Assembly: GCF_025345565.1 (NCBI RefSeq)
Contig: NZ_CP054475.1
Location: forward strand, 3,823,129-3,887,128
Length of the DNA stretch: 64,000 nucleotides
Source of the DNA: Thalassolituus hydrocarboniclasticus
Lineage (GTDB): Bacteria; Pseudomonadota; Gammaproteobacteria; Pseudomonadales; Oceanobacteraceae
Direction of reading: 5' to 3'
Positions 34,658-50,288 of this stretch are shown here, in pieces (the stretch's first letter is position 1; every line of letters begins with the position of its first letter). The position numbers were made by a program, and so were the translations under genes. The notes beneath the pieces were generated by a model, which did not search any database, was not told where the DNA came from, and saw only the letters and a program-made list of their open reading frames with translations.

Positions 34658-36064
34658 TCAGAGTTGTCTGGCCAGATGCTGCAGATGCTCTTCTGCCCAG
34701 CCGCTGTAGTCATCAGCTGTGCGCTGCTCAGCACCGGCAGCCGGGTTCAGCGGCGGCAGGGGCCAGGGTCTTTGTAACAAAGTTTCTGCGTTAAGCATAT
34801 CAGACAGCGCGCGCCACACTGTTTCGCCGGGCGCATTTACCTGCGGCAAGGCACGGCCATAATCACAGGCCATGCACAGCAGAGCCAGCTCGTGTGCCAT
34901 ACCACGCCACTGCTCGGTCGACTGTGGCCGCTGTCGCTTAAGCTGTTCCAGCAATGGCTGATGCTGACGCAGTAAATGACGCAGCCAGTGACCGGCCTGC
35001 TCGCTGCCTTCTTTTAACGGCGGCAACGCATACAACGCCGCCGCTGCCTGTGTCAGCGCGCTGGCGAGCCCGGCGTCATCACGCAGCTGTTGCAGGCGCT
35101 GCATCCAGACCGCCTGCAGGCTATTTAGTTCTTCGTGTACGTCACTTTCTTCATCGGCAGAGCGCAGATAGCTGAGCAGCTGGGCCGTAGCCGCCAGTTG
35201 CTGCAATGGCTGTTGCAGCTGGTCCAGCGCATCGCGCAGGGCGCGGGTCTGATTACGGCGGATCACTTTACCCGCCAGCTGCGGCAGGGCACGCAGCGCC
35301 TGCCAGTGGGTCCAGGCATCCAGCGCTGCGTGGATATTGCTGTCCCACAGACAATGCTCCAGCGCACGCTGCAGGTGTAAGAATTCATAGCTCAGCCACT
35401 GCGGCAGAGCTTCGGCCATATCGTCTGCGGCGCTGACGTCCGGCGTCTGTGCCCAGGGCTGACTTAGGCGCGCCAGACGGTAGCCACGTTCAGCCTTGCT
35501 GATATCACTCAGCCAGAGTGGCGCCTGTTCAGCCAGCTGCAGGGCAATTGCCCACAAACCGGCGGCATCGCCCTGTTTTAATTCCAGCTCGACTTCGCAC
35601 AACGGCAGGGTCTTGCGCCCGCTGCTCACCTCACCCTGATCCAGCACCACTTCGGCTTCACAGCCATCCAGCTGCCACAGCCAGGCCTGGCGTTCAAAAT
35701 GGGTGGTGAAGATTTCGCCCAGTTCAGCAACATTGATGCTGGCTGGCCAGTGCTCAGCCACTTCGGCCCTCTGCAGTAGGGTACTGTCGAGCTGTGGGGA
35801 GGTTAATGGCCAGTTCCATTCACCACGCTGATGTATGCCAGCCTGGCTCTGGCCACGGGTTTTAAGCGTCTGTTCGTAGCCATCGCCGTGCTGGCGGATA
35901 CGCAAAGCCGCACGGGCCGACGATAACGCCGCTGCGGGCGTATCGAGGTACCAGTTTTTCAGCGTAGAATGGCTCAGAGGCCGGGCCTGAGTGTTCAGGA
36001 ATTGAGTCAGCGCAGGCAAAGATTGCGGGCTGATACGGAGCTTGAGTTCGGTTTCTTTAGTCAT
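34658..36064 (-). CDS. CYTH and CHAD domain protein (YgiF-like inorganic triphosphatase)
   Basis: A 468-residue protein. The N-terminal CYTH domain (about 1-200) begins with the signature TKETELKL (ExExK) and has the basic RAALRIRQHGDGYEQTLK strand pair that binds triphosphate. The C-terminal CHAD domain (about 215-465) is helical with regular His and Arg residues, which bind polyphosphate in other CHAD proteins. E. coli YgiF has the same layout and hydrolyses tripolyphosphate. It is divergent from argE. Confidence 0.92.
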   Translation of the reverse strand: MTKETELKLRISPQSLPALTQFLNTQARPLSHSTLKNWYLDTPAAALSSARAALRIRQHGDGYEQTLKTRGQSQAGIHQRGEWNWPLTSPQLDSTLLQRAEVAEHWPASINVAELGEIFTTHFERQAWLWQLDGCEAEVVLDQGEVSSGRKTLPLCEVELELKQGDAAGLWAIALQLAEQAPLWLSDISKAERGYRLARLSQPWAQTPDVSAADDMAEALPQWLSYEFLHLQRALEHCLWDSNIHAALDAWTHWQALRALPQLAGKVIRRNQTRALRDALDQLQQPLQQLAATAQLLSYLRSADEESDVHEELNSLQAVWMQRLQQLRDDAGLASALTQAAAALYALPPLKEGSEQAGHWLRHLLRQHQPLLEQLKRQRPQSTEQWRGMAHELALLCMACDYGRALPQVNAPGETVWRALSDMLNAETLLQRPWPLPPLNPAAGAEQRTADDYSGWAEEHLQHLARQL

Positions 36065-36138
36065 GGCGCTATTGTCATGAGGCGCCTGACGATAAGCAAG
36101 CCGGAATACATCAATATGCGAACCGCAAAGGGCCAGTT

Positions 36139-37287
36139 ATGGATCTGATCAGCCGTCTTACCACTCTTATTGCTCACAACAGCATCAGCTCGGTGTTGCC
36201 GGAATACGATGAAAGCAATCTGCCGGTGATCAACACCCTCGCCCAATGGTTCAGTGAGCTGGGCTTTGCCTGCGAAATCCTGCCGCTTGAGGGCTTCCCC
36301 GGTAAAGCCAACCTGATTGCCACCTTGGGGCGTGGTGATGGTGGCCTGGTGCTCAGCGGTCATACCGATACCGTGCCCTGTAATCCGGAACGCTGGCAGT
36401 CCGACCCTTTTACCCTGACTGAGCGTGACGGCCGTTTTTACGGGCTCGGCACCTGCGATATGAAAGGCTTCTTCGCTCTGGTTCTCGAAGCCCTTAAGCA
36501 CTATCAGGCCAGCGACTTTAAACAGCCGCTGATTATTCTCGCCACCGCCGATGAAGAAAGCTCCATGTGCGGCGCGCGCGCGCTGGCGCAGCAGGGTAAG
36601 CCGAAAGCGCGCTATGCGGTGGTCGGTGAACCCACCAGCTTAAAACCCATCCGTATGCACAAAGGCATCATGATGGAGAGCGTGCGCTTAACCGGTAAAG
36701 CCGGGCATTCATCCAACCCGGATCTGGGCACCAACGCCCTCGATGCCATGGTGCCGGTGATGAATGAATTAATGAATCTGCGCCGCGATCTGGCCGGCCG
36801 TTATCAGAACGCGCATTTTGCCGTGCAGGTACCGACGCTCAACCTTGGCTGTATTCACGGTGGCGATAACCCCAACCGTATCTGTGGCAGCTGTGAACTG
36901 GCGTTCGATTTGCGCACCCTGCCGGGTATGAGCAACGACGATCTGCGCGAAGAAATCCGCCAGCGGTTAAACCCCATTGCCGAGCAGAACCGCGTCGAGT
37001 TTTCTTTCGAGCCGTTATTTCCCGGCGTGAATTCGTTTGAAACCGCCGCCACCAGCCCACTGGTTCAGGCCGCCGAACGCTTAACCGGCCATACCAGTGC
37101 AGCGGTTAATTACGCCACTGAAGCACCTTTCTTACAGGAACTGGGCATCGACACCATTGTGCTAGGGCCGGGTAATATCGATCAGGCGCATCAGGTGGAT
37201 GAATATCTGGCGCAGGATCAGATTGAACCCTGTGTGGAATTATTACGCGGCCTGATTGAGCGCTTCTGTCTGCACCCTTCTGTCTGA
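36139..37287 (+). CDS. argE: Acetylornithine deacetylase
   Basis: A 382-residue zinc M20-family enzyme giving ornithine from N-acetylornithine. Metal and catalytic motifs: SGHTDTVPC, GLGTCDMKGFFA, TADEESSMCGAR and VVGEPTSLKPI; a dimerisation domain occupies about 180-290. It is followed 62 bases later by argA, so arginine synthesis enzymes are paired. No clear ARG box was found upstream. Confidence 0.95.
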   Translation: MDLISRLTTLIAHNSISSVLPEYDESNLPVINTLAQWFSELGFACEILPLEGFPGKANLIATLGRGDGGLVLSGHTDTVPCNPERWQSDPFTLTERDGRFYGLGTCDMKGFFALVLEALKHYQASDFKQPLIILATADEESSMCGARALAQQGKPKARYAVVGEPTSLKPIRMHKGIMMESVRLTGKAGHSSNPDLGTNALDAMVPVMNELMNLRRDLAGRYQNAHFAVQVPTLNLGCIHGGDNPNRICGSCELAFDLRTLPGMSNDDLREEIRQRLNPIAEQNRVEFSFEPLFPGVNSFETAATSPLVQAAERLTGHTSAAVNYATEAPFLQELGIDTIVLGPGNIDQAHQVDEYLAQDQIEPCVELLRGLIERFCLHPSV

Positions 37288-37349
37288 GCGCGGCTCATGC
37301 TTAAATCAACGCCAACATTAAAAACCTGTTTCAGGAGTGAAAAAGCCGA

Positions 37350-38654
37350 GTGAATCCAGATACCACCGCTTACGTGCAATGGTTCCGTCAATCATCGCCG
37401 TACATTAATGCGCACCGCGGTAAAACCTTCGTCATCATGTTCGAAGGCGATGCCATTGCGCACGACAATTTCAATCATGTGGTGCAGGACATCGCCCTGC
37501 TGACCAGCCTTGGCGTACGCCTGGTACTGGTGCATGGCGCGCGACCACAGATTGATGCGGTATTAAGCAAGCTGGATATCCAGAGCCGTTTTCACAACGA
37601 TTTACGCATCACCGATGGCGAAGCACTGGATGCAGTAAAAGCGGCGGTCGGCATGGTAAAGGCCGATGTCGAATCACGTCTGTCCATCGGCCTGCCCAAC
37701 TCGCCGATGCACGGCGCACGCATCCGCGTGGTCAGCGGTAATTTCGTCACCGCCAAACCACTGGGCGTGATTGACGGTGTTGATTATCAGCACACCGGCG
37801 AAGTGCGGCGCATTGAACATCAGGCCATCAGCGAATTACTGGCACAGCGTAACGTCGTGCTGCTGTCATCGGCCGGTTACTCGCCGTCGGGCGAAATGTT
37901 TAACCTCACGGTTGAAGACGTAGCACAGCACACCGCCGTGGCACTGCGCGCCGATAAATTAATTATTATGGGCGAGCAATCCGGATTGCTGGATGACGAC
38001 GGCGAGCTGATTAAAGAATTAACCTGTATGGATCTTGAACCGCGTCTGCAGGCCTGGAAAGGCGAAGTGCGCTGCCATGCCGAAGCGGCGATAAAAAGCG
38101 TGCGTCAGGGCGTGCCACGGGTACACCTGCTGAGTTACGCCGACGACGGTGCCCTGCTGCAGGAATTATTCTCACGCGAAGGGCGTGGCACCATGGTCAC
38201 GCAATACGCCTACGATCAGCTGCGTAATGCCAGAAGCGACGATGTGGTTGGTATTCTTGAATTACTGCGTCCGCTGGAAGAGCAGGGCATTCTGGTGCGC
38301 CGTTCACGGGAATTACTGGAAAACGAAATTCAGCGTTTTTATGTGATTGAACGCGACGGCATGATCACCGCCTGTGCGGCGCTCTATCCTTACTCCGACG
38401 ACAAAGCCGAGCTGGCCTGCGTGGCGGTGCATGCCGATTATCGCGGTACCAATCGCGGTCAGCGTCTGCTCGAACAGATTGAGCAGGAAGCCCAGCGGCG
38501 TCAGTACAAACAATTATTTGTGTTAACCACACGTACCGCCCACTGGTTTATCGAAAATGGTTTTGTTGCCGGTGCCGTCAGCGAATTACCGCAGGAACGG
38601 CAGAAGCTGTATAACTTCCAGCGTAATTCCAAGGTATTTTTCAAATCCTTGTGA
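37350..38654 (+). CDS. argA: N-acetylglutamate synthase
   Basis: A 434-residue enzyme for the first arginine-pathway step. The amino-acid-kinase-like N-terminal domain (about 20-285) contains VLVHGARPQID and NVVLLSSAGYSPSGE; the C-terminal GNAT domain contains AELACVAVHADYRGTNRGQRLL, the acetyl-CoA site. This classical two-domain layout matches E. coli ArgA. The start is GTG with AGGAG about 12 bases upstream, rather far, but no better start exists. Confidence 0.96.
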   Translation: MNPDTTAYVQWFRQSSPYINAHRGKTFVIMFEGDAIAHDNFNHVVQDIALLTSLGVRLVLVHGARPQIDAVLSKLDIQSRFHNDLRITDGEALDAVKAAVGMVKADVESRLSIGLPNSPMHGARIRVVSGNFVTAKPLGVIDGVDYQHTGEVRRIEHQAISELLAQRNVVLLSSAGYSPSGEMFNLTVEDVAQHTAVALRADKLIIMGEQSGLLDDDGELIKELTCMDLEPRLQAWKGEVRCHAEAAIKSVRQGVPRVHLLSYADDGALLQELFSREGRGTMVTQYAYDQLRNARSDDVVGILELLRPLEEQGILVRRSRELLENEIQRFYVIERDGMITACAALYPYSDDKAELACVAVHADYRGTNRGQRLLEQIEQEAQRRQYKQLFVLTTRTAHWFIENGFVAGAVSELPQERQKLYNFQRNSKVFFKSL

Positions 38655-38667
38655 GCAATAAGCAACC

Positions 38668-39435
38668 GTGATTTCACTCTCTCACCTGGGGCGCGAAATT
38701 CATCGGCGTTACGATGAATTCGGCCCCATTCTGGTGTTCGACGACGGCAATAAACGCTATTTAAGTTTTGGCACCGCCGACGAACAAAGCTGCCAGCTGA
38801 AAAGTGCGCCACTGCAGTTACAGCACGAATATGCCCGTGCCATGGTCGCCGTGCTGATGCAATCCGACGCCTCGACACCACCGGCGAATATCACGCTGCT
38901 GGGAACCGGCGGCGGTACTCTGGCCAGCACACTGTTCCACTGGCTGCCGCAGGCGACAATTCAGGCGGTGGATATCCGGCAGGCGGTGTTTCAGATCGCG
39001 CAGCAGTATTTTGCTCTGCCCCGTGATAAGCGTCTGAGCACCCATGTCAGCGATGCCGCCGAATTTTTACGCAACAGCGAGCAGGGACAGTGCGATTTAT
39101 TAATCTGCGATCTGTATCTGGCCGATGGCCTTGATCCTTTGGTATTGCAGAGCGACTTTCTCGATTTATGCGAACGCCATTTATCGGCCCACGGCTGGCT
39201 GGTACTGAATTTATGGAAAGAACACCGCGAACAGACCGACTGTCTGGCGCAGTTAAAACAGCGCTTCCCGCAATTACTGCAAAGCACCACCACCGATGGC
39301 AACTGGATTCTCTGGGCCAGTAAATACGCAGAAATTGCCGATAAAAAAACGGCCCGCGAACGCTGCGTGCAGCGCTCACCGCTGGCCGGTTTTAATCTGT
39401 GGAATGTGGTGAAAGGCTTTTATCGTCACCGCTGA
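38668..39435 (+). CDS. Spermidine synthase-like protein, probably not a spermidine synthase
   Basis: A 255-residue Rossmann-fold protein starting at GTG, 13 bases after argA. It has the N-terminal strand region and ITLLGTGGGTLASTLFHWLP in place of the cofactor loop GGGDGG, and CDLYLADGLDP where SpeE has DSTDPIGP. The Asp in the first loop is lost, and the catalytic Asp appears replaced, so aminopropyl transfer is doubtful. It could be a methyltransferase or a regulator. The true speE is at 12.7 kb. Confidence 0.75.
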   Translation: MISLSHLGREIHRRYDEFGPILVFDDGNKRYLSFGTADEQSCQLKSAPLQLQHEYARAMVAVLMQSDASTPPANITLLGTGGGTLASTLFHWLPQATIQAVDIRQAVFQIAQQYFALPRDKRLSTHVSDAAEFLRNSEQGQCDLLICDLYLADGLDPLVLQSDFLDLCERHLSAHGWLVLNLWKEHREQTDCLAQLKQRFPQLLQSTTTDGNWILWASKYAEIADKKTARERCVQRSPLAGFNLWNVVKGFYRHR

Positions 39436-39589
39436 TACAGCCACATCATGCACTGGCGCCTACAAAGAATTACAAACTTCCCGGTTTAGTGACACGAACA
39501 GCCGTTGCCGCAGCTGCAGCCATAGGGTAGCGTGCTGATGACAAGATCAGCATGGAGCAGCCCCCTGACTGCCCACGTCTGATCAGCAG

Positions 39590-39629
39590 AATAACAACCG
39601 CCAATAAATAACAGCCAGAATAACAACAA
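39590..39629 (+). promoter_or_regulatory. Repeated AAYAAYAA motifs in the leader of the BASS gene
   Basis: AATAACAA occurs at 39590-39597 and 39619-39626, the second running into AACAACAA (39622-39629). All fit the AAYAAYAA pattern bound by Hfq with Crc in Pseudomonas. They lie 12-51 bases before the start codon of a carbon-compound transporter. Catabolite control is an inference. Confidence 0.35.
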
Positions 39630-39640
39630 GAGTACTCAGT

Positions 39641-40516
39641 ATGTTGCAGTCACTAATTCAGATCGGCCTGCCGGTCGCCCTGATTTTAATTATGGTCGGC
39701 GTTGGTCTCGGCCTCACTCCGGAAGATTTCCGCCGTGTATTCCGCCAGCCAAGGGGCTTTCTGATCGGTGCTTTCTGTCAGATGTTATTGCTGCCACTGA
39801 TCGCAATGGCGGTCATCGCCATTACCGGTCTGCATGGTGAAATGGCTATCGGTCTGTTTATTCTTGCCCTTTGCCCCGGTGGTACCACCTCCAATCTGTA
39901 CAGTTTTCTCGCCCGGGCCGATGTTGGCCTGTCGGTATCACTGACCGCGGTGATTGGTTTTATTACACCGTTCAGCATTCCGTTACTCGGCGTCTGGGCC
40001 ATTAACCATTACAGCGATGCCGGCTCACACTTTGAGCTGCCGATTGTCAGCACCTGGATCAAGCTGATGATTATCACCGTGATTCCGGTGGTGATTGGTA
40101 TGGCGATCCGCGCAAAATGGCAGCACTTCGCGCGCCGTATGGAGCCACTGATCACTCGCTTCTCTGTGATTGTGCTGATTGCGGTGATCGTCTCTATCTG
40201 TATTAACCTCGGCGATAAGCTGATTGGCTTTACCCTGCAGGCCGGACCGGCTGCATTGCTGCTGAACATCAGCACCATGGGCCTTGGCTATCTGGCCGGA
40301 CGCTGGTTCCTGCACAGCGAAGCGCAGGCACGCGCCATCAGTCTTGAAGTCGGTTTACAGAACGGAACCCTGGCCCTGCTGATCACCACCAGCATCCTGC
40401 AGAGCGCCGAAATGTCGATCGCCCCGAGCGTTTACAGCCTGATCATGTTTATCAGTGCCAGCCTGTTTACCATTGCGGTGTTACGTCGCGACCGCCGCCA
40501 GGTCGCCGTGGCCTGA
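39641..40516 (+). CDS. Bile acid:sodium symporter (BASS) family transporter
   Basis: A 291-residue inner membrane protein with about nine to ten hydrophobic helices. It has the two BASS signatures: LALCPGGTTSNLYSFLARAD in the first half and LEVGLQNGTLALL in the second, at the crossover helices that hold the sodium sites. Bacterial members move organic anions such as pantoate or 2-oxo acids, so bile acid need not be the substrate. It stands alone after a 205-base gap that holds no other gene. Confidence 0.9.
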   Translation: MLQSLIQIGLPVALILIMVGVGLGLTPEDFRRVFRQPRGFLIGAFCQMLLLPLIAMAVIAITGLHGEMAIGLFILALCPGGTTSNLYSFLARADVGLSVSLTAVIGFITPFSIPLLGVWAINHYSDAGSHFELPIVSTWIKLMIITVIPVVIGMAIRAKWQHFARRMEPLITRFSVIVLIAVIVSICINLGDKLIGFTLQAGPAALLLNISTMGLGYLAGRWFLHSEAQARAISLEVGLQNGTLALLITTSILQSAEMSIAPSVYSLIMFISASLFTIAVLRRDRRQVAVA

Positions 40517-40693
40517 AGAACACACTCCCTGACGGACAGCATGGCCGGGCCAAAAGCGCCCGGCCCGTTCAGTTTGTCCCGGGATGCAGCCGTATGCGTT
40601 TTTGTGACGCACATCCCGCAAAATATCCGCCGCAAATACACAACTAAAGTACCATTTAAGCTAGAATCCGCGCCGTCATTCACGGAGGACTCT

Positions 40694-41920
40694 ATGCGAA
40701 CCCGAATTCTATCCACGACCAAAAGCCTGCTGCCAGGCGCGCTGTTACTGTGCGCAACCAGTCAGGCGATCGCCGACAACGGCCTTAACGTATACGGCTT
40801 CCTTAATGCCGGTGCTTATTACCTTGATGAGGATGACATCACCATCGAGGCCTACGAATCAGGCGACCCGCAATTTTTCAACCGCGACACCATGATGGGC
40901 CTGCAGATCAGTAAAGAGATCAGTGAGCGCACTAACGCCACTATCCAGCTGACCGCCAAAGGTGAAGAAGACTTCGCGGTACGCACCTCACTGGCCTTTA
41001 TCAGCCACGCACTGAATGACAGCACCGACATCCGTTTTGGTCGTCTGCGTATTCCGTTCTTCTATTACTCAGAATTCCTTGATGTTGGTTACGCCTACAA
41101 CTGGATCCGCCCGACCGGTGATGCTTACGGTATCCCGTTCTCTGATTACAACGGTGCTGACATCATCAAACGCTTCAGCTTTGACAGCTTCGACGGCCAG
41201 ATTCAGCTGAACTACGGTCGCCGTGACAAAGAACTCATGCTGTTTAACGAAGCCTATGAGGCTGAGCTGAACAACTTCGCCGGTGCCACCCTGAATCTGT
41301 ATATGGGCAACTTCGGTCTGCGCTTTGGTATGCAACAGACGCAGATGACGCTGGATACTGCCGCGGATATGCAGACCCTGATCGACGTCGCCGGCGGTAA
41401 AAACCCGGATATCGCGCTTTACGACCTGGCCGCCAGCGGTGCCCGCCGTATCGATATCGCCCAGACCGCCGCCACCCTGCTGACAGACGGTATGAGTGAA
41501 GAAACACAGAAGACCTTCAACTTCGACGACAAAAAAGCCCGCTACTACAACCTGGCAACGACCTGGGATAACGGCGACTGGAGCTTTATCGCCGAAACCG
41601 CGGTTATCAACTTCGACTCCGGTCTGTATATCGATAACTTCGCCTGGCTGGCGTCGCTGGCCAAGCGTTTTGACGCTCTGACCATCCATACCACCTACTC
41701 GACCTCCCGTGACCGTCTTGACGGTGGTGAAGTGGGTGACGTGCAGAAAGCCATGGGCACACGCGGTGAAGACGAAAGTATCACCCTCGGTATGCGCTAC
41801 GACCTGGATGAAGCAACCGCCTTCAAACTGGAAGCGACCCACCACATAGAGGAAACCAACCAGGGCCTGCCAGGCGCCTCCGGAACTCTCTATCGCGCCG
41901 CATTACAGCTGGTATTCTGA
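40694..41920 (+). CDS. Outer membrane porin-like beta-barrel
   Basis: A 408-residue protein with signal peptide (1-27, ending AIA), then LNVYGFLNAGAYYLDED, alternating strand patterns and a C-terminal Phe in ALQLVF, the sorting signal of outer membrane barrels. The segment RFGRLRIPFFYYSEF resembles porin strand-loop constrictions. ACGGAGGA precedes the ATG at 40694; the longer upstream frame is leader. It is followed 11 bases later by a small periplasmic binding-protein-like gene, and the two probably work together. Substrate unknown. Confidence 0.85.
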   Translation: MRTRILSTTKSLLPGALLLCATSQAIADNGLNVYGFLNAGAYYLDEDDITIEAYESGDPQFFNRDTMMGLQISKEISERTNATIQLTAKGEEDFAVRTSLAFISHALNDSTDIRFGRLRIPFFYYSEFLDVGYAYNWIRPTGDAYGIPFSDYNGADIIKRFSFDSFDGQIQLNYGRRDKELMLFNEAYEAELNNFAGATLNLYMGNFGLRFGMQQTQMTLDTAADMQTLIDVAGGKNPDIALYDLAASGARRIDIAQTAATLLTDGMSEETQKTFNFDDKKARYYNLATTWDNGDWSFIAETAVINFDSGLYIDNFAWLASLAKRFDALTIHTTYSTSRDRLDGGEVGDVQKAMGTRGEDESITLGMRYDLDEATAFKLEATHHIEETNQGLPGASGTLYRAALQLVF

Positions 41921-41931
41921 GGAGCTGACAC

Positions 41932-42363
41932 ATGAAATTTATCAAAGCCCTGGGAATGACCACTCTGCTGAGCCTGAGCGCCGCCAGCTGGGCCGACATC
42001 GCAGTGATCGTCAATCTGAAAAATAATAATACTTACACAGGTATCGATGCCGACCTGATTGAGCGTATCTATCTGGGTAAGGCCAGCAAGTTTCCTGATG
42101 GGACGGCGGCCGTGCCTTACGATCTGGCCAAAGGCGACAGTGTGCGCGAACAGTTCGGTGTCAAAATACTGAACAAAACGCCATCCCAGCTGCACGCGTT
42201 CTGGTCGCGTTCAATCTTCGCCGGTAAGAAACAGCCACCACGTGAAGTCAGCAATGCCGATGCCATGAAGGCTGCGGTTGCCGCCGACCCACACGCCATC
42301 GGTTATATCAACGCCTATGCCGTTGATCCGAGTGTGGCCGTGCTCTACACCATCAAAGACTGA
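41932..42363 (+). CDS. Small PstS-like periplasmic protein
   Basis: A 143-residue secreted protein with a signal peptide ending SASWA-like (about 1-21). The mature part ADIAVIVNLKNNNTYTGID, then IERIYLGKASKFPDG and ADPHAIGYINAYAV, resembles a single lobe of PstS-type phosphate-binding proteins, much shorter than full PstS. Such short forms may bind a ligand as a dimer or hand it to another protein. It is cotranscribed with the porin and closed by a strong terminator. The ligand is not evident. Confidence 0.8.
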   Translation: MKFIKALGMTTLLSLSAASWADIAVIVNLKNNNTYTGIDADLIERIYLGKASKFPDGTAAVPYDLAKGDSVREQFGVKILNKTPSQLHAFWSRSIFAGKKQPPREVSNADAMKAAVAADPHAIGYINAYAVDPSVAVLYTIKD

Positions 42364-42368
42364 GCCGG

Positions 42369-42399
42369 GCCCCGGACGCATGCGTCCGGGGCTGTTTTT
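42369..42399 (+). terminator. Terminator after the porin/PstS-like pair
   Basis: A 24-base perfect palindrome (GCCCCGGACGCA with its complement) is followed by TGTTTTTA. It starts 6 bases after the stop codon. Confidence 0.9.
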
Positions 42400-42453
42400 A
42401 TCACAGCAATCCGTCTTACTCTTGCCCGCCCCATAGCAACAAGGATGCGAAAT

Positions 42454-44040
42454 ATGATCCGAGCATTACTGATGATCGCTCTGCTGGCCGGACCCCTGCC
42501 ATTTTCACAGCTACAGGCAGCAGAACTGGTACTCAACGGCAGCGCGTCCTATTACTACCTGACCCGCGAATACTATGTCGCCGGATTATATCTGCCCGCT
42601 CCGGAACAAAATCCGGATGCCATTCTTTCCCCTTCCACCGCCAAGCGCATGCAGCTGATTGTCAGCACCGAACGCTGGTCACCGCGCAAATGGGCGCAGC
42701 AGTGGCAGAACAACATCTCCATCAATAACGATCTCAGCGGCGATACCCAGCTGCAGCAGGCAGTGATGGAATTTACCCAGTTTCCGCGCGATGACCTGCA
42801 GCGCGATGATGAAATCAGCATTGAATACCAGCCCGGCGGTAACACCCGCGTTCTGCTTAACCGCGAAGCGGTGATCGAAAGCAGCGGCGTCGAACTGTTT
42901 AACTACCTGCTCAATACCTGGATCGGCAAGCTGCCGCCATCACGTGAATTCCGCCAGCAGATCCTGCAGCAGGACAACTCCGCCGCCGCCGAGAAAAACC
43001 GCCGCCTGCTGCTGACCCACGAAATTCCGGCCGCACGCAAACAGCTGTATTCCGGCTGGCTGAATGCCGAACGGGCCAAGCGCGAACGCGAGCAGCAGAT
43101 GGCGCTTAAAGCCGAGCAGGAAGCCGAAAAAGCCGCTCAACAGGCTGAACAGCAGCGCCAGGCTGAAGCCCGCCGTCTGGCCGAAGAACGCGCCGCCCGT
43201 GAAGCCGCTGAAAAGCTCGCCAGACAACGTGCCGAGCAACTGCGCCTGGCCCAGGCCACCGCGATCAAGGCTCAGGCTGAGCGTCTGGCAAAAGCGTCCC
43301 GGCAACCGGCCAGCAACAAAAACGCCGCCAGCGCGAACAACACCGGCAGCAAGAGCGCAGCGGTTCTTGCCGCCGAGCAGGACTACTACCTGCAGCAGCT
43401 GCAGTGGCAGTTACAGCGCCAGCTGGAAGCCGAAGTCAGCTACCCGGCCTGGGCCAAACAGTTTGCTCAGGAAGGTCTGGTGGAAATGGATCTGGAGCTG
43501 AACCGCACCGGAGAAGCCTTTAACCTGCGCCCCCGTGACGAAAGTGTTGCCAAGTTATTAATCACCGAAGTGCAGCGTGCGGTGCAGAGTGCCGCCGGCA
43601 AAATCCGCATCAGTGATGATCTCGAAGGTCAGCAGTGGCCGCTCAGCGTACGCTACCTGTTCTCACTGCAGGGCGCAGAACAACAGCCGCTGACCATGCC
43701 GCAACCGCCGAAATCCTTACAGGTGAAGAAGGCGCCACCAGCACAACAGGAACAGCTGAGCCAGAGCTACGAAGAAGTGCAGCGCGAACGTATTCTGAGT
43801 GCGGTGGAATACCCGAAAGCCGCACAGATTCTGAAGAAAAGAGGCCTGATTGAGCTGCAGGTGGAAATTCTGCGCGACGGCAAACTGGGCGAAATTAAAG
43901 AACTCAGCAACAACCGTCACCGCGAACTGACCCAGGCATTAATCAATGCCGTCAAACAGAGCGCACCCTTTCCGCCGCTGCCAGCCGGACTGGCAGCGTC
44001 CGGGCTGAAGTTTAAAGTCAGCTACGACTTCAAGCTCTGA
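42454..44040 (+). CDS. Secreted CHI-like, coiled-coil, double TonB C-terminal domain protein
   Basis: A 528-residue predicted periplasmic protein. A cleavable signal peptide (1-22, ending LQA) replaces the membrane anchor of ordinary TonB. Residues about 24-175 resemble a chalcone-isomerase-like domain (YYVAGLYLP, RMQLIVSTERWS). A charged Ala/Glu/Gln/Arg coiled coil spans about 200-285. Two TonB C-terminal-like domains follow: VSYPAWAKQFAQEGLVEMDL (about 318-400) and VEYPKAAQILKKRGLIELQV (about 435-528). AAGGA lies 8 bases before the ATG at 42454; an ATG 9 bases earlier has no spacing for a ribosome site. No ExbB/ExbD is near. It follows the porin pair. Function unknown. Confidence 0.8.
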   Translation: MIRALLMIALLAGPLPFSQLQAAELVLNGSASYYYLTREYYVAGLYLPAPEQNPDAILSPSTAKRMQLIVSTERWSPRKWAQQWQNNISINNDLSGDTQLQQAVMEFTQFPRDDLQRDDEISIEYQPGGNTRVLLNREAVIESSGVELFNYLLNTWIGKLPPSREFRQQILQQDNSAAAEKNRRLLLTHEIPAARKQLYSGWLNAERAKREREQQMALKAEQEAEKAAQQAEQQRQAEARRLAEERAAREAAEKLARQRAEQLRLAQATAIKAQAERLAKASRQPASNKNAASANNTGSKSAAVLAAEQDYYLQQLQWQLQRQLEAEVSYPAWAKQFAQEGLVEMDLELNRTGEAFNLRPRDESVAKLLITEVQRAVQSAAGKIRISDDLEGQQWPLSVRYLFSLQGAEQQPLTMPQPPKSLQVKKAPPAQQEQLSQSYEEVQRERILSAVEYPKAAQILKKRGLIELQVEILRDGKLGEIKELSNNRHRELTQALINAVKQSAPFPPLPAGLAASGLKFKVSYDFKL

Positions 44041-44047
44041 TACATGC

Positions 44048-44085
44048 CTGCCATGCCAGTCTGCCAGCTCAGACAGGCATGGCAG
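44048..44085. terminator. Long hairpin between convergent TonB-like and patatin genes
   Basis: CTGCCATGCC and GTCTG on the left pair with CAGAC and GGCATGGCAG on the right, a 15-pair stem interrupted by one A-A mismatch with a 6-base loop. No T tract follows on either strand, so it may stop transcription with Rho or protect 3' ends. Confidence 0.5.
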
Positions 44086-44093
44086 CCGCTACC

Positions 44094-45167
44094 TCACCAG
44101 GGCAGCGGCTCTGCCACTTCCGCCCAGCGCTGCTGCTGATCAATATCCGCCAGCTCATCCCCCAGCCGTTCACAGGCGGCCAGCGCAATATCCCAGCGCC
44201 GGCGACGCGCGCTGTAATCCGGGTAATCGTAAAAATCTTCAAGATCGGGAATACGTCCACCCGGCAATGTCGCTGCAAACTCCCATGACGGAGCGATGAT
44301 GATGGTGCGGCGATAGTTCTCCCGCGAGGCCGTACGCCAGCGCAGTTTCTTATCAAACCAGCCGCCTTTCGGGGCTTTGGCAAAATAGTGCGGATACAGC
44401 ACAAAGCCTTTTTCCGGCAGCACCGGCAGATCAAACTGGTAATCGGTAATACCACCATCGCGGTAGGTTCCGGGCGGAGCACCGGGAATATTACGCACCC
44501 CGGCAATCACCAGCGGAATCGCGCCACTGGCCAGAATCGCCGGACGCAGATTATCTTCAGTCAGGGTTACATGACGGGCAGGCAGATGCGGGTAATGATC
44601 AATCGGCGCCCGCTGCGGATGATGAAACACCACCCGCTCAATCCACGGGCGCATGGCGCTGCGGGCGATCAGATTGGCCGCCATGGCGCCGGCCAGACCT
44701 AAACTCTGCGTTATTTTATGATCGGCAGCAGCCAGACCACGGCAGCGCGCCACCATCGTGTGGTAACGCACCAGCGGGTTATTGATAATTTCCTGTGTAC
44801 CGGTTTCGCCAAGAATCACATCCAGAATATGGCGACAAACCGCTGCCACTTCCTGCGCTGTCGGTTTGGCCGAGGCGTACTGCTGACTGATATAGGCTTC
44901 CTGCAGGCGGGCATGAGCCGCCAGCGGGTCTTTCTGAGCGTAACAGGCCATGCGCCAGGCACCGGCGGAAGTGCCCATTACATGCAGTGGCTGCCGGCGG
45001 TCGCGTACCCACTCGCTCAGCAGATAACGATCCATTGCCGCCAGCGTCAGCCATTTAGGACCGCCGGAAGCGCCCAGTATCATGTCTATATCTGATGATT
45101 GCAGACCATTGGCGCGGATATGCGCCAATGCTTCACGTCCGGCAAAAATTTTTAAGGCAGGCTTCAT
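44094..45167 (-). CDS. Patatin-like phospholipase
   Basis: A 357-residue acyl hydrolase. The oxyanion loop GASGGPKWL, the nucleophile elbow GTSAG and the catalytic Asp in YRDGGITDY form the Ser-Asp dyad. No signal peptide is seen, so it acts in the cytoplasm or at the inner membrane face, or is exported by another route. GGAG lies 6 bases before the ATG at 45167; two ATGs 12-15 bases upstream are less well placed. It is convergent with the TonB-like gene. Confidence 0.9.
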   Translation of the reverse strand: MKPALKIFAGREALAHIRANGLQSSDIDMILGASGGPKWLTLAAMDRYLLSEWVRDRRQPLHVMGTSAGAWRMACYAQKDPLAAHARLQEAYISQQYASAKPTAQEVAAVCRHILDVILGETGTQEIINNPLVRYHTMVARCRGLAAADHKITQSLGLAGAMAANLIARSAMRPWIERVVFHHPQRAPIDHYPHLPARHVTLTEDNLRPAILASGAIPLVIAGVRNIPGAPPGTYRDGGITDYQFDLPVLPEKGFVLYPHYFAKAPKGGWFDKKLRWRTASRENYRRTIIIAPSWEFAATLPGGRIPDLEDFYDYPDYSARRRRWDIALAACERLGDELADIDQQQRWAEVAEPLPW

Positions 45168-45336
45168 GCCCCGCTCCATCATAATGAAAGGGCTCTTTGT
45201 ACCCTGTTCATATGACAGACTTAAGGGGCAAAGATGCTAAGGAACCGCTAAATAGCCATTCTACCCGGACTGCGGTAGCCAAAACGTCAGCCATAAGGCG
45301 GTAGCTGCAGCAATTCATAACATTCCGGACCAAATA

Positions 45337-45351
45337 CGGGCACTGCGCCCG
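45337..45351 (-). terminator. Weak hairpin after the chemoreceptor gene
   Basis: CGGGC and GCCCG form a 5-pair stem with a 5-base loop just beyond the chemoreceptor stop, followed on the minus strand by TATTTGG. The rest of the 45168-45360 gap shows no gene. Confidence 0.3.
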
Positions 45352-45360
45352 CATCTGACA

Positions 45361-47271
45361 CTACAGCCGGAACTGCATCATTTGCTGCGCCAGTTGTTGC
45401 GCCAGCTTGGCCAGCTCTTTCACTTCCTGCTGGCAAGTGGTCAGGCCGTCACTGGAACGGCTGCTCAACTCCGCAATATTCTGCACGTTACGGCTGATAT
45501 CTTCCGTTACCGAACTCTGCTCTTCCGTTGCCGTGGCAACCTGATGACTCAGACCCACCACATCACCGACGTTTTCGCTGATATTGCTCAGCGCTTCGCC
45601 CATACGCTTGGCTGCCGATACCGTTTCAGAGGTCGCCCCTTCACCAGCCTCCATTGCCTTAACCGCACGCTGCGAGCCCTGCTGCAGACGTTCGATAATG
45701 GCTTCAATCTCACTGGTTGATTCCTGGGTACGGCGCGCCAGATTACGCACTTCATCGGCCACTACCGCAAAACCACGGCCATGTTCGCCGGCACGGGCCG
45801 CTTCGATGGCGGCATTCAGTGCCAGCAGGTTGGTCTGCTCAGAAATCGCGCTGATGACCTGAATCACCTGACCAATATCGTTCACCTGCTGCGCCAGCTG
45901 GCCAATGGCTTCTGCTGACTCGCGGATATCCCCGGACATGCTGTTTACCTGAGTAACCGAGCGCTCCATATCGCCACGGATACGACCGGCATCGCCACTA
46001 ACGCTTTCCAGCTTGGTAGCGGTTTCCGTGGCGTTGCGCGCCACTTCCTGTACCGTCGCTTCCATTTCGTAAATTGCGGTCGCAACCGAATCGGTCAGTT
46101 TGCTCTGCTCAGACGCCCAGCTGTGATTGGTGGTGACCACTTCTTCAATCTGCTCGGTATAGGTTTTTACCTGCTGAGCGGTATCGAGAATGCCGCGGAT
46201 CATCTGCCGCTGCGATTCCATAAAGTCGTTAAAGCCACGCGCCAGCTGACCCAGTTCATCTTTACTGTCCGCCTTCAGGGTCTGGGTCAGGTCGCCTCCC
46301 CCCTGACCAATACTGACCAGTGCCTGAGTGATACGGCGCAAAGGCAATGTCATGCGGTCGGCCAGCACGGCAATCAGGCCGAGAAATACCAGAGCAGTGA
46401 CAATACCAACGGTCAGCGACAGCAGCGTCGCCTTGTGTAATACCCCGTAAATCTCATCGCGCGGCACCTCGACCACCAGATGCCAGTCGACAGTGTCCAG
46501 CTGCATGGCGGAAGCAATGACGGCTTCGCCATCGCGTTCAAACTCGGTCAGATCACCGGCTTTGGCTGCCAGCAGGGCTTGTGCTGCAGTTGCAGGAACA
46601 TGCTGAGCCAGATCGATACCGGACAATTTAAGATCGGGATGAATGAGGATTTTTCCGGCATTGTCGGTCAGATACACAATGCCGGTTTCAGCGAAGCGGA
46701 ATTTGCGGATACGTTCCGCCATTTCCTCAAGACCAATGCCTAAGCCACTGATGCCAAGCGCTTTGCCATTGCGCTCAATACGGATATTAATGAATAAAGT
46801 CGGCTTACCTGTGCTTTTATCCACATCCAGCTGCAGCGCGCGTTTAAGGCCTTTATCGAGGAAACCGAAAAACCAGCCGTCATTTTCTGTGGTAACCGTA
46901 CGGCTGAGGCCTTGCTGGGTGTAGTAGTTGCGGGTCAGCGCCGACACAAAATGAGCGCTGTCGGCCTTTTGCCGGCGGGCAATATTGCCGAGAAACTCCT
47001 GATTCAGCGCCCACTCATCCTGTGGCTCACCACGCTCAATCCAGTCCTGCATCAGAGTGTTGCTGGCGATAAGCTCAGAAGCGGTGATACCACCAACCAG
47101 ATCTTTTTCAATTTCATGGGCAATGGAGCGGATGTTCGCCGGCAGGGCAGAGCCCAGCCAGTAGGTCTCAAGTTGTTGGCGGTTTTGCCAGATACCGACA
47201 CCGACAACCAGTGCCACACTCAGCAACAAAGCACCGCCCATAGTAAGCAGTAATTTCTGGCGGATGGTCAT
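45361..47271 (-). CDS. Methyl-accepting chemotaxis protein with dCache-like sensor
   Basis: A 636-residue chemoreceptor. Transmembrane helix 1 (about 8-28), a periplasmic region of about 250 residues with the dCache look ([47 protein letters not shown]), helix 2 (about 285-308), HAMP (about 309-362) and the signalling domain with the hairpin tip [20 protein letters not shown] then [15 protein letters not shown]. No C-terminal tethering pentapeptide is present. The ligand is unknown; the cytoplasmic end should couple to CheA/CheW encoded elsewhere. Confidence 0.95.
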
Positions 47272-47348
47272 GAAGGACTCCTGAAGGGAAAAAAATCATC
47301 CTTTCAGACTAGCAGTCAAAAACGGCACCTGCCGCCTGACAACCAACT

Positions 47349-48692
47349 TCAGTTCACTTCGGCCGTTGCCATCTGTAACTGGTAATGCCGCACCCGCCAC
47401 AGCAACAGCGCGCCCATCAGCAGATTACCTGCCGCCGCACCTATCAGCAGGCCCGGGTAGCCGCCCATCTCCGCACCGATAAAGGCACCCGGCACATAAA
47501 AGGCAAACAGGCGGACAAAGTTAATCACCATCGAGGTCTGGGTGCGCTGCAGGGAATTCAGCGCAGAATTCACACACAGCACAATACCCATGCCGGCATA
47601 GCCCAGCGGCAGCCAGCGTATGTACTCAACAATGCTTTGCTGTACGGCAGGCTCAGCGGAGAACAGCTGCGCCAACCAATGGCCCGTAACCCAGAAAATC
47701 AAACACACTGCTCCCTGCCACAAGGCCAGAAAACGGAAGCTGCTGTACAGGGCCTGCCAGATACGGTCGTACTGAGCCGCCGCATGATTCTGCGCGACAA
47801 ATACCGGCAGAGTTGAAGTCAGCGCCAGAATCACCACGATGGCGAACGGCTCCAGACGCATGCCGACACCAAAACCAGCCACGGCTTCCGGCCCCAGCGG
47901 CGCCACCATCACCAGCAGAATGGCACCGGCCACCGGCACCATCATATTGGTCACCATCGCCGGAACACCCAGCTGCAGCATTCGTTTCCACAACACCCGT
48001 ACTTCGTGCCAGCCCATGCCATGACGGCTGATATAACCTTCACGGCGCTGGCGGGTCATAATCACCAGCAGCACCAGAATCCAGCACAGCGCACTGGCCA
48101 GCGCCGCGCCACCAATCCCCATACCCGGCAATGGCCCCCAGCCAAAAATCAGCAGCGGATCGAGTAACGCATTCAGCACCGCTGCCACCATCATCATCTG
48201 TGACGGCAGCCTGGTATTACCGGTCGCCCGCATGGCGCTGTTCTGCATCATCATCAGCAGCAGTACGATGGCGCCGGGCCACCAGAACACCATATAGCGG
48301 CGGATCTCCGGCAGCAGTTCATCTCCGGCGCCCAGCAGGCGGAACAACGCGTCATTGCTCAGCCAACCCGCCACGGCAATCACCACGCCCAGCAATAAAC
48401 TGAGCAGCAAGCCCGCCATCGCGGCACGCTGTGCCTGCAGGTTGTCATCAGCACCCACCGCGCGCGCAATTAAAGCGGACATGGCAATGCCCAGACCAAT
48501 CGCCAGATTCATCACCAGCATGGTGACCGGCATAGTAAAGCCCACTGCTGCCAGACTTTCGGTTCCGAGCAAGCTGATAAACCAGGTATCCACCATGTTG
48601 AAAAAGAAGACAGCCATAATGCCCAGCACCATCGGCTGGGTCAGGCTGTAGAGTGTGCGGTTGACCGGGCCGCTGAGAATGGCTTGGCGCAC
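47349..48692 (-). CDS. MATE family efflux transporter
   Basis: A 447-residue inner membrane protein with about twelve hydrophobic helices in two halves, starting PVNRTLYSLTQPMVLGIMAVFFFNMVDTWFIS and with LAIGLGIAMSALIARAVGA, typical of MATE multidrug or toxin exporters driven by sodium or proton. It lies downstream of nothing on its strand and 77 bases before the chemoreceptor start. Substrate cannot be predicted. Confidence 0.93.
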   Translation of the reverse strand: MRQAILSGPVNRTLYSLTQPMVLGIMAVFFFNMVDTWFISLLGTESLAAVGFTMPVTMLVMNLAIGLGIAMSALIARAVGADDNLQAQRAAMAGLLLSLLLGVVIAVAGWLSNDALFRLLGAGDELLPEIRRYMVFWWPGAIVLLLMMMQNSAMRATGNTRLPSQMMMVAAVLNALLDPLLIFGWGPLPGMGIGGAALASALCWILVLLVIMTRQRREGYISRHGMGWHEVRVLWKRMLQLGVPAMVTNMMVPVAGAILLVMVAPLGPEAVAGFGVGMRLEPFAIVVILALTSTLPVFVAQNHAAAQYDRIWQALYSSFRFLALWQGAVCLIFWVTGHWLAQLFSAEPAVQQSIVEYIRWLPLGYAGMGIVLCVNSALNSLQRTQTSMVINFVRLFAFYVPGAFIGAEMGGYPGLLIGAAAGNLLMGALLLWRVRHYQLQMATAEVN

Positions 48693-48834
48693 AGTGGCCT
48701 CCTTATGAATTATTTTTCTGCGCTCACTCTACACTAAAACGCTGTCATGACAGGCCTGTAACTCCCCGCCTGAACTTGCACTGAGCACACCCGCTCGCTA
48801 CCCTGCGGCAAGATTTTTGCTCAAAGAGGATGCT

Positions 48835-49590
48835 ATGCGTCACCAGACCCTGATTATTTCATCACTTTCTGTATTGTCTCTGTTACTGCCGGCTGCGCAC
48901 GCAAGCGCAGAAGAAGCAGCGGCCGATGCAGCCACTGCAGCGGAATTTCCGATCTGGGGTGGTTCCGCAGAGCTGGGTACCATCCGTACTTCAGGCAACA
49001 CCGATACTTCCAGCATTAACGGTAAATTTGCGGTTAAGCGTGACGGTGAACTGTGGGACTCCGCTCTCAAGCTGGATGCCCTGACCAGTAAGGAAGATGG
49101 TGTAACCTCCAAGGAAAAATACGGCGGTACGATTCAGCTTGACCGTAATTTCAGTGAATATTCCTACCTTGCCATTGTCGGCGATCAGGAACGCGACCGT
49201 TTCAGCGGTTTTGAATATCAGTCAACGTTCGCTGCCGGTTATGGTTACCGTGCGATCCACCAGCAGAATATGGAACTCGATCTCGAAGCCGGCCCCGGTT
49301 ACCGTCGCGACAAACTGAAAGAAAGCGGTGAAATCGACGAAGAGGCTATTGCCCGTCTGGCGGTCAAATATCACTGGACCATTCAGAAAGGCGTCGAGTT
49401 TATTGAAGAATTCAGTGCCGAGCTGGGTGAAAGCAACAGCATTTATAAATCGGAAACCGGCCTTAAAAGCCAGATCAACGGCAGCCTGGCGACCAAACTG
49501 ACGTACAAAGTGAAGTACGTTGATAAGGTGCCGGCAGACAGCGAAAACACCGATACCGAGTTTGGTGTCACTCTGGTGTACAGCTTCTGA
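48835..49590 (+). CDS. DUF481 outer membrane beta-barrel protein (YdiY-like)
   Basis: A 251-residue secreted protein. The signal peptide ends at about residue 25 (HASA), followed by an Ala/Glu linker and the DUF481 start IWGGSAELGTIRTSGNTDTS. Strand repeats and a C-terminal Phe (LVYSF) indicate an outer membrane barrel. GAGG lies before the ATG at 48835; an in-frame ATG 18 bases upstream lacks a site. DUF481 proteins respond to salt or acid in some bacteria; the role here is unknown. Confidence 0.88.
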   Translation: MRHQTLIISSLSVLSLLLPAAHASAEEAAADAATAAEFPIWGGSAELGTIRTSGNTDTSSINGKFAVKRDGELWDSALKLDALTSKEDGVTSKEKYGGTIQLDRNFSEYSYLAIVGDQERDRFSGFEYQSTFAAGYGYRAIHQQNMELDLEAGPGYRRDKLKESGEIDEEAIARLAVKYHWTIQKGVEFIEEFSAELGESNSIYKSETGLKSQINGSLATKLTYKVKYVDKVPADSENTDTEFGVTLVYSF

Positions 49591-49617
49591 TCGGATTGTT
49601 CTGCCACCGCAGATAAC

Positions 49618-49647
49618 AAAAAGCCCGCGTTATTACGCGGGCTTTTT
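49618..49647. terminator. Bidirectional terminator after DUF481 gene
   Basis: AAAAGCCCGCG pairs with CGCGGGCTTTT around TTATTA. It separates the convergent DUF481 and Spy-like genes and has A/T runs on both sides. Confidence 0.92.
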
Positions 49648-49667
49648 GTATCCGATAAACCGGATTA

Positions 49668-50288
49668 TTAATCGCAGTCTTTTTCTTTATAACGGCCATG
49701 GTGAGCATCCAGACCTTCTTCGTCAGGATGATGCCACTTACGCACTTGTTTTTCTTTCATCGCCGCCCACTTTTCCTGCTGTTCGGCAGTCAGCACGCTC
49801 TGCACCAGTTGCTCAAACTGCTGACGCGCAGCCTCACGCTGAAGCTGATCCAGCGGCCACTGATAGTTGTCCCTGAGTTCTTTAACGCCTTTTAACAGCG
49901 CACTTCTCTGCTCGTCGCTCAGATCCAGTTTACGCGCCAGCTCTTTGGCGTGTTTTTTCTGCATTTTCGCGTGCTGCTCGCGCATCAGACTCTGCGCCTG
50001 CTGACGCTGCTCCTCTGTCAGCACCTGCTGAATTTCCGCCCGCATAGTCTGTACTAAACCGTGCACTTTGCCGCGGTTTTCACCTTTCCCGCCGGCCGCT
50101 TTGCGCAATTCGCAGATCTGCTTTTCGTACTTATGTTCAATTTCCTCGATGCGTTCTTCCTGAGCATCGGTTAATTCCAGTTCATCATCCCAGTCTATTT
50201 CGCGATGCTTGCCACCAAAGGCCAGACTCTGGCCGGCCAGTAACAGGATCAAGGCGGCGCCAGCGGCTTTGATTAGGGTCTGTCTCAT
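49668..50288 (-). CDS. Spy/CpxP-like periplasmic LTxxQ protein
   Basis: A 206-residue secreted helical protein. The signal peptide (1-23, ending SLAF) is followed by four LTxxQ-type motifs: LTDAQEERI, LTEEQRQQA, LSDEQRSAL and LTAEQQEKW. Such proteins are ATP-independent chaperones (Spy) or stress-response sensors (CpxP). The tail HPDEEGLDAHHGRYKEKDCD, rich in His and Asp with a terminal Cys, is unusual and might bind metal. GAGGAACG precedes the ATG at 50288. Confidence 0.85.
   Translation of the reverse strand: MRQTLIKAAGAALILLLAGQSLAFGGKHREIDWDDELELTDAQEERIEEIEHKYEKQICELRKAAGGKGENRGKVHGLVQTMRAEIQQVLTEEQRQQAQSLMREQHAKMQKKHAKELARKLDLSDEQRSALLKGVKELRDNYQWPLDQLQREAARQQFEQLVQSVLTAEQQEKWAAMKEKQVRKWHHPDEEGLDAHHGRYKEKDCD

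Follow-up and report, generated by a model that had tools for sequence, protein, structure and literature searches.

A predicted secreted protein of Thalassolituus hydrocarboniclasticus combining a chalcone-isomerase-like domain, a helical rod and two TonB-type C-terminal domains

The stretch of the Thalassolituus hydrocarboniclasticus genome analysed here (64,000 nucleotides, positions 3,823,129 to 3,887,128 of the forward strand of contig NZ_CP054475.1, hereafter the window) carries a gene whose product has the layout of TolA with a chalcone-isomerase-like (CHI-like) head in place of the membrane anchor and with a doubled C-terminal domain. The CHI-TonB family to which it belongs is real, conserved and unusual, and the architecture of CHI domain, rod and two TonB-type domains appears to be undescribed; the initial annotation knew of no described system with such a layout, and a full-text search of open-licence PMC papers, mostly judged by title, likewise found no paper on the protein. 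Our tentative reading, put forward as a good possibility and not as a settled role, is that it may be a secreted, non-energised adaptor of the TolA/TonB type with a non-catalytic CHI head.

C-terminal domains of the TonB/TolA type are usually taken for the part of a proton-driven lever that meets the outer membrane, and if the adaptor reading is true then a secreted family that keeps and duplicates the docking end, the anchor apparently having been discarded, shows that the docking domain has an independent life. It would also give the first physical context for bacterial CHI-like secreted proteins, for which no described periplasmic role was found in open-licence PMC papers. Our guess is that automatic annotation often names such proteins "energy transducer TonB".

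Domains and residues of the CHI-TonB protein

The gene and the parts of its product are as follows.

42454..44040, + strand: whole gene, encoding a predicted secreted CHI-like / rod / TonB_C / TonB_C protein of 528 aa (ORF, Pfam, AlphaFold)
42454..42522, + strand: signal peptide, residues 1-23, with a hydrophobic core and a small-x-small motif before the CHI domain (sequence)
42523..42969, + strand: CHI-like domain, residues 24-172, with Tyr33 where CHI enzymes have the catalytic Arg (PF16036, structure matches, residue counts)
43030..43296, + strand: long predicted rod helix, residues 193-281, of TolA-like composition (AlphaFold secondary structure; sub-threshold NCBIfam tolA_full match over 176-381)
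43384..43671, + strand: TonB-type domain D1, residues 311-406, sequence-divergent (sub-cut-off Pfam, hhalign of D1 against D2, TolA structure match)
43750..44037, + strand: TonB-type domain D2, residues 433-528, canonical (Pfam TonB_C, NCBIfam TIGR01352, H. pylori TonB structure match)

The reading frame runs uninterrupted from an ATG at 42454 to the stop ending at 44040, with an alternative ATG at 42445. The signal peptide is called from the sequence only: the N-terminal segment is the one strongly hydrophobic segment in the protein, 34 of 40 fused proteins have a small-x-small motif just ahead of their CHI domain (a permissive pattern, counted without a chance control), and the first predicted strand of the CHI domain begins as early as residue 26 in the AlphaFold model. 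The initial annotation had called this signal cleavable; the signal itself stands, and its cleavage is what we infer from these features. The protein contains no Cys and hence has no lipobox, and it is probably secreted and periplasmic without a membrane anchor.

That the protein joins a CHI-like domain to two TonB C-terminal domains, as first proposed from the sequence, is agreed upon by Pfam, hhalign, and AlphaFold with structure matches. Chalcone_3 (PF16036) was found by hmmscan over residues 19-171 (E 5.2e-20, 72.6 bits against a cut-off of 27), and structure comparison of the AlphaFold model matched residues 22-176 to many CHIs and, as the best structural match, to the Arabidopsis protein FAP1 (AtFAP1, Z 10.2). 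The catalytic Arg of CHI is reported to sit in an LxGxGxR motif (PMC9996372). In none of 40 fused proteins is that position an Arg, it being Tyr in 33, Phe in 3, His in 3 and Glu in 1; Arg is found there in 17 of 18 unfused bacterial relatives, which came from 34 loci tried, most of them found with the fused profile, of which 27 had an ORF and 18 passed. By domain the window protein is therefore a Chalcone_3 member and, as far as its residues can be read, it is not a chalcone isomerase. Among ten unfused CHI genes that lie beside fused genes, read by eye, that of L066 has LNGAGIR and the other nine have no Arg there. As those nine, which stand beside single-TonB fused genes, lack the Arg although unfused, its loss is not strictly tied to fusion; judged from these alignments it marks the fused group together with its unfused relatives and is no mark of fusion in itself.

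Other positions of the CHI domain are strictly kept. R78 is invariant in all 39 fused CHI domains, with Arg there in 4 of the 18 unfused ones, and D119 and N136 are equally invariant (39/39) and also present in 17 and 15 of the 18 unfused domains respectively. Non-catalytic proteins of the CHI fold are described as binding fatty acids or heme, the motif Arg being invariant in fungal homologues of the heme-binding Aim18p type (PMC9996372). That Arg is absent from the window protein, which, being without Cys, would not carry a c-type heme.

Between the CHI domain and D1 lies a region which in the window protein is 70% Ala, Glu, Lys, Arg and Gln and which ranges from 80 to 262 aa across the 40 fused proteins, a variable length that might fit the role of a spacer. 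The NCBIfam model tolA_full matches residues 176-381 at 31.6 bits, under its cut-off of 59.45. A coiled coil had been suggested for this region at the outset, and what AlphaFold predicts there is one long helix (193-281).

The TonB_C family (PF03544) matches the protein in two stretches, of which the best is 451-528; the whole protein scores 51.5 bits, the cut-off being 24.6. TIGR01352 is above its NCBIfam cut-off over 452-528 (36.4 bits against 27.1), a YP motif is present as in the C-terminal domains of TonB and HasB, and PF06519 (TolA) reaches only E 0.1 on D2. Taken alone D1 matches TonB_C over 327-388 at 19.3 bits, under the same cut-off of 24.6. Its reading as a chance match or artefact is ruled out by a structure match, given below, and by hhalign, in which profiles of D1 and D2, each built from 17 double-domain proteins including that of the window, align with 99.3% probability (E 2.5e-20, 87 columns).

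In the AlphaFold model, which was built from 5 sequences with a mean pLDDT of 69.5 (ten-residue means of 62-84 in D1 and 75-89 in D2) and from which the arrangement of the domains relative to one another is not to be read, both domains have the order helix-helix-strand-strand-helix-strand; a model of residues 301-528 made without an alignment had a pLDDT of 41.6 and was set aside. Residues 301-403 match the C-terminal domain of Vibrio cholerae TolA (Z 10.2) and residues 433-528 that of Helicobacter pylori TonB (Z 9.9). In TonB-type C-terminal domains, strand beta3 is described as the one with which TonB boxes pair (PMC11658791; PMC3602595), and AlphaFold gives both D1 and D2 a third strand. 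As D1 has diverged, its partner may be of another kind than that of D2.

Distribution and descent of the fused family

In 55 genomes of relatives many fused homologues were found, with one TonB domain or two, together with many matches to one domain, and the double form occupies 20 places in 19 of the 44 genomes from the family. Matches that cover both CHI and TonB were listed for one of 370 genomes of the class, that of the window itself, and for three of 397 genomes of the phylum (its own, G048 and G567), all from the same order; these counts come from up to four candidates scored per genome, among the best matches listed. In the genomes sampled the fused family is thus seen confined to its own taxonomic order, as far as such matches can tell. 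Pfam, run on 33 of the fused proteins, finds Chalcone_3 in all 33 and TonB_C in 30.

In a tree of CHI domains the 39 fused ones form one clade against the 18 unfused bacterial CHIs (100/99; 200 of 200 bootstrap trees), L040 being excluded from the trees (Ns in its sequence). When the ten unfused neighbours are added, nine of them join the single-TonB fused group and that of L066 joins the ordinary short forms. In this enlarged tree the fused row L069 nears the short forms (94/77), and the fused label needs two changes. One fusion with later loss would fit as the simplest reading of the CHI trees, rather than as a proven single origin.

The TonB-type domains were placed in a tree of few columns, with two canonical TonBs of the same genome as outgroup, in which the D1-like label was set after earlier trees had been seen. 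It contains a D2 clade of 16 rows (99/91) and a D1-like clade of 21 rows (96/93), the two joining each other (99/94) inside a fused family that stands apart from the canonical TonBs (100/100). Because D1 and D2 are each other's closest relatives, the second TonB domain arose by internal duplication, with D1 diverging later. Recent gain of the second domain from a true TonB was considered and is unsupported, D1 and D2 grouping within the fused family. Six loci carry a D1-type domain only, and one of these, L034, groups with L047-L049 (89/77 in the CHI tree, 96/91 with the unfused neighbours added); as the CHI trees place such loci beside a double form, it is probable that some of them have lost D2.

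The genome of the window holds a second fused gene, encoding a protein of 391 aa with a single canonical TonB domain that is 26% identical to the window protein. An unfused CHI-like gene is found directly downstream of it, and the two (L054 7057-9058, own genome 2612089-2614057) lie beside suf/iscR-type genes, named by eye. This combination of a fused and an unfused CHI-like gene at a suf/iscR-type site, again named by eye, recurs in 9 loci, and in the CHI tree the unfused CHI-like genes of the site cluster with the fused genes. Apart from this site, no shared neighbourhood was found among the other fused genes. Four short CHI-like proteins are encoded elsewhere in the same genome. In genome G794 a full double-domain gene lies close to a second stretch on the same strand that matches residues 219-527 of the window protein (L144 5039-8596).

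Neighbouring genes

Upstream of the CHI-TonB gene are two genes that recur beside its relatives, and a hairpin.

40694..41920, + strand: porin (Porin_4), recurrent neighbour (Pfam; its tree clade holds adjacent copies only)
41932..42363, + strand: small PstS-like secreted protein of 143 aa, recurrent neighbour (NCBIfam ptsS_2 sub-threshold, E 0.003, 16.8 bits against 206.6)
42368..42403, + strand: terminator-like hairpin of 11 perfect pairs and then a T-run, between the PstS-like and CHI-TonB genes (sequence)

The PstS-like protein has no Pfam match. In a tblastn survey covering the window, L031-L069 and L143-L147, some of these loci being short contigs, a porin gene and a PstS-like gene were found directly upstream in 11 of the 26 loci of the window gene's clade (8 of 20 double loci and 3 of 6 single-D1 loci) and in 0 of the 18 loci of other fused genes. 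In a tree with 21 non-adjacent porins, hand-chosen from those listed in the porin search, the 11 adjacent ones make up a single clade (89/83), ten of them grouping at 97/96. Furthermore, among the matches listed, linked porins with a single full-length match score at least 311 bits and no unlinked porin scores more than 278. As the adjacent porins form one clade the linkage is inherited, yet the CHI-TonB gene persists without the pair. That the porin and PstS-like genes would travel with the CHI-TonB gene, which the initial annotation had left as something to be checked, is thus borne out for this part of the clade. The linked pair occupies several genomic sites, namely an argE-argA-SBF site (argE and argA named by eye), another in L047/L048, and that of L034.

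The pair cannot be the sole partner of the CHI-TonB protein, since it is missing from 15 of the 26 loci of the clade and from all 18 others. A strict functional unit with the porin and the PstS-like protein is weakened by these 15 loci and also by how common such genes are elsewhere, genome G054 alone having 15 PstS-like and 14 porin matches.

A hairpin between the PstS-like and CHI-TonB genes was found in 9 of the 11 linked loci. Read by eye, six of these hairpins (in the window, L031, L032, L033, L034 and L146) run into at least five T and those of L047 and L048 into four T, while that of L039 has no T-run after it; in L041 and L042 the gaps between the two genes are 5 and 11 bases, with no hairpin. 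Because the hairpin intervenes, simple co-expression of the pair and the CHI-TonB gene is doubtful in the window and a simple three-gene operon is weakened. Partial read-through into the CHI-TonB gene may occur, as far as the hairpin allows it to be judged.

The adjacent porin starts directly with its barrel and has no obvious TonB box (by eye). Among the window ORFs at 36000-50000, identified by eye and some by Pfam, no TonB-dependent receptor was recognised, nor, among those of at least 100 aa, any of tolQR, tolB and pal. The statement that no ExbB/ExbD was nearby holds for its ExbD half, as none of the eight ExbD matches in the genome falls within the window; two canonical TonBs with adjoining ExbD are found elsewhere in it. 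TonB-dependent receptors do occur within six genes of fused genes at L041 (2734-4815), L042 (2434-4584), L061 (13565-16000), L063 (3924-6074) and L068 (2-2698), five receptors found among the 10 scanned of 38 large neighbours listed, without a chance control; they are candidate partners only. L061 and L068 also have a phytase gene, situated between the receptor and the fused gene or beside them. A role in defence was dropped, PADLOC giving no match for the CHI-TonB protein, the porin or the PstS-like neighbour.

Several further genes were seen in these surroundings. A second porin and PstS-like pair of the own genome (L147 6871-9968, about 715370-718470) stands behind a 478-aa membrane protein, the C-terminal half of which is adenylate cyclase-like by eye. 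Genes for SBP_bac_1 and GGDEF proteins lie near the fused gene of L050 (3720-6902), and one for SBP_bac_3 near that of L034 (1383-2210), the locus that also has the porin pair. Solute-binding-like proteins, so named by eye and with no Pfam match, are encoded near the fused genes of L060 (7276-8076) and L063 (6304-7089).

Possible roles and known systems

Like TolA, the window protein has a C-terminal domain of the TonB/TolA type at the end of a long periplasmic helix rich in Ala, Lys and Glu, the predicted rod corresponding to the helical domain II and D1 to the TolA-type C-terminal fold (Z 10.2). It differs from TolA in having no evident anchor, a CHI domain in front and two C-terminal domains, which Pfam calls TonB_C, the matches to TolA family models being below cut-off. 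With TonB and HasB it shares the PF03544 C-terminal family, the YP motif and the fold; unlike them it has no evident anchor, SxxxH motif or adjacent ExbD, and it has an added CHI domain and a duplicated C-terminal domain. By defining features (anchor motif, motor neighbours, TolA models) it is, on the sequences at hand, neither a TonB nor a TolA, and it may nonetheless dock as they do.

We take the nearest modular relatives to be GltG and GltJ of Myxococcus gliding. These too are modular and TolA/TonB-like, with a periplasmic helical domain and TonB_C motifs. Their TonB_C motifs are thought to contact outer-membrane barrels, whereas, in contrast with the window protein, they keep a transmembrane helix, GltG being in contact with the Agl motor (PMC5349195), and passages of that paper on them mention no CHI domain. 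A CHI fold is shared with the short secreted bacterial Chalcone_3 proteins, the plant FAPs and yeast Aim18p/Aim46p; the short bacterial proteins differ in being unfused and, in 17 of 18, in keeping the catalytic-type Arg, and the fused CHIs are separate from them (100/99).

In the adaptor reading that we tentatively favour, removal of the signal peptide would leave the protein with no inner-membrane anchor and no coupling to a motor. As a non-catalytic head, the CHI-like domain would bind a protein or a small hydrophobic molecule; the rod would let the protein reach across the periplasm, and the two C-terminal domains would dock on envelope partners by edge-strand addition, D2 probably being the canonical site and D1 a specialised one. 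Where a lineage has the porin/PstS-like pair, the protein and the pair would together capture or sense a solute at the outer membrane. The ligand binding, the mode of docking and the partners are what we infer here. The initial annotation had proposed that such an adaptor could touch two TonB-box partners or join the outer membrane to peptidoglycan, both of them conjectures. A bolder version, more conjectural and somewhat doubtful, is that the family is a new class of soluble, motor-free adaptors that span the periplasm with a ligand-binding CHI head, a TolA-like rod and duplicated docking heads, a class which arose in ancestors of the order and which, joined by a porin and a small PstS-like protein of its own, later became specialised in passing or sensing a solute at the outer membrane, with no use of proton-motive energy.

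It would seem unlikely, although well worth weighing, that the protein is a structural spacer or tether, in which the rod and the TonB-type domains fasten the outer membrane, or the barrels in it, to Tol-Pal or peptidoglycan and the CHI domain is a mere globular head. The TolA-like layout of rod and C-terminal domain, the structural match of D1 to TolA and the variable length of the rod would all be in keeping with this; however the protein has no lipid anchor, no peptidoglycan-binding family is among its Pfam matches, and the invariance of R78, D119 and N136 goes beyond the apparent need of a plain head.

Less probable again is an uncleaved N-terminus in a TonB/TolA variant that has a CHI domain inserted beside the membrane and draws its energy from an ExbBD/TolQR motor whose genes lie elsewhere in the genome. 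An anchor is possible given the hydrophobicity of the signal, and the eight ExbD-type matches mean that a motor is available in trans. The SxxxH membrane motif is a feature of the N-terminal anchor of TonB and TolA, but His occurs in the window protein at residues 189 and 489 only, so the motif is absent, the first CHI strand begins already at residue 26, and the permissive cleavage-like motif precedes the CHI domain in most fused proteins.

We give slightly less credence still to the idea of a decoy or regulator, in which the TonB-type domains, being unanchored, would occupy TonB boxes or TolB, thereby damping the activity of TonB or Tol as the state of the CHI domain dictates. Two such domains in a cell with canonical TonBs of its own, and receptors within six genes of some relatives, speak for it; against it, such binding is conjecture, D1 has diverged in sequence, and the window ORFs at 36000-50000 include no recognised receptor. 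Finally, an enzyme held at the outer membrane, with chalcone isomerase or a related activity, has a clear CHI fold and the existence of active bacterial CHIs (PMC8361940) in its favour and is dismissed as scarcely credible, since all 40 fused proteins have Tyr, Phe, His or Glu in place of the catalytic Arg.

One other gene was observed next to members of the family: in two relatives, L038 (4392-5060) and L039 (7509-8165), the CHI-TonB gene is directly followed by one for a small, secreted, Gln/Ala/Glu-rich and probably helical protein of ~220 aa.
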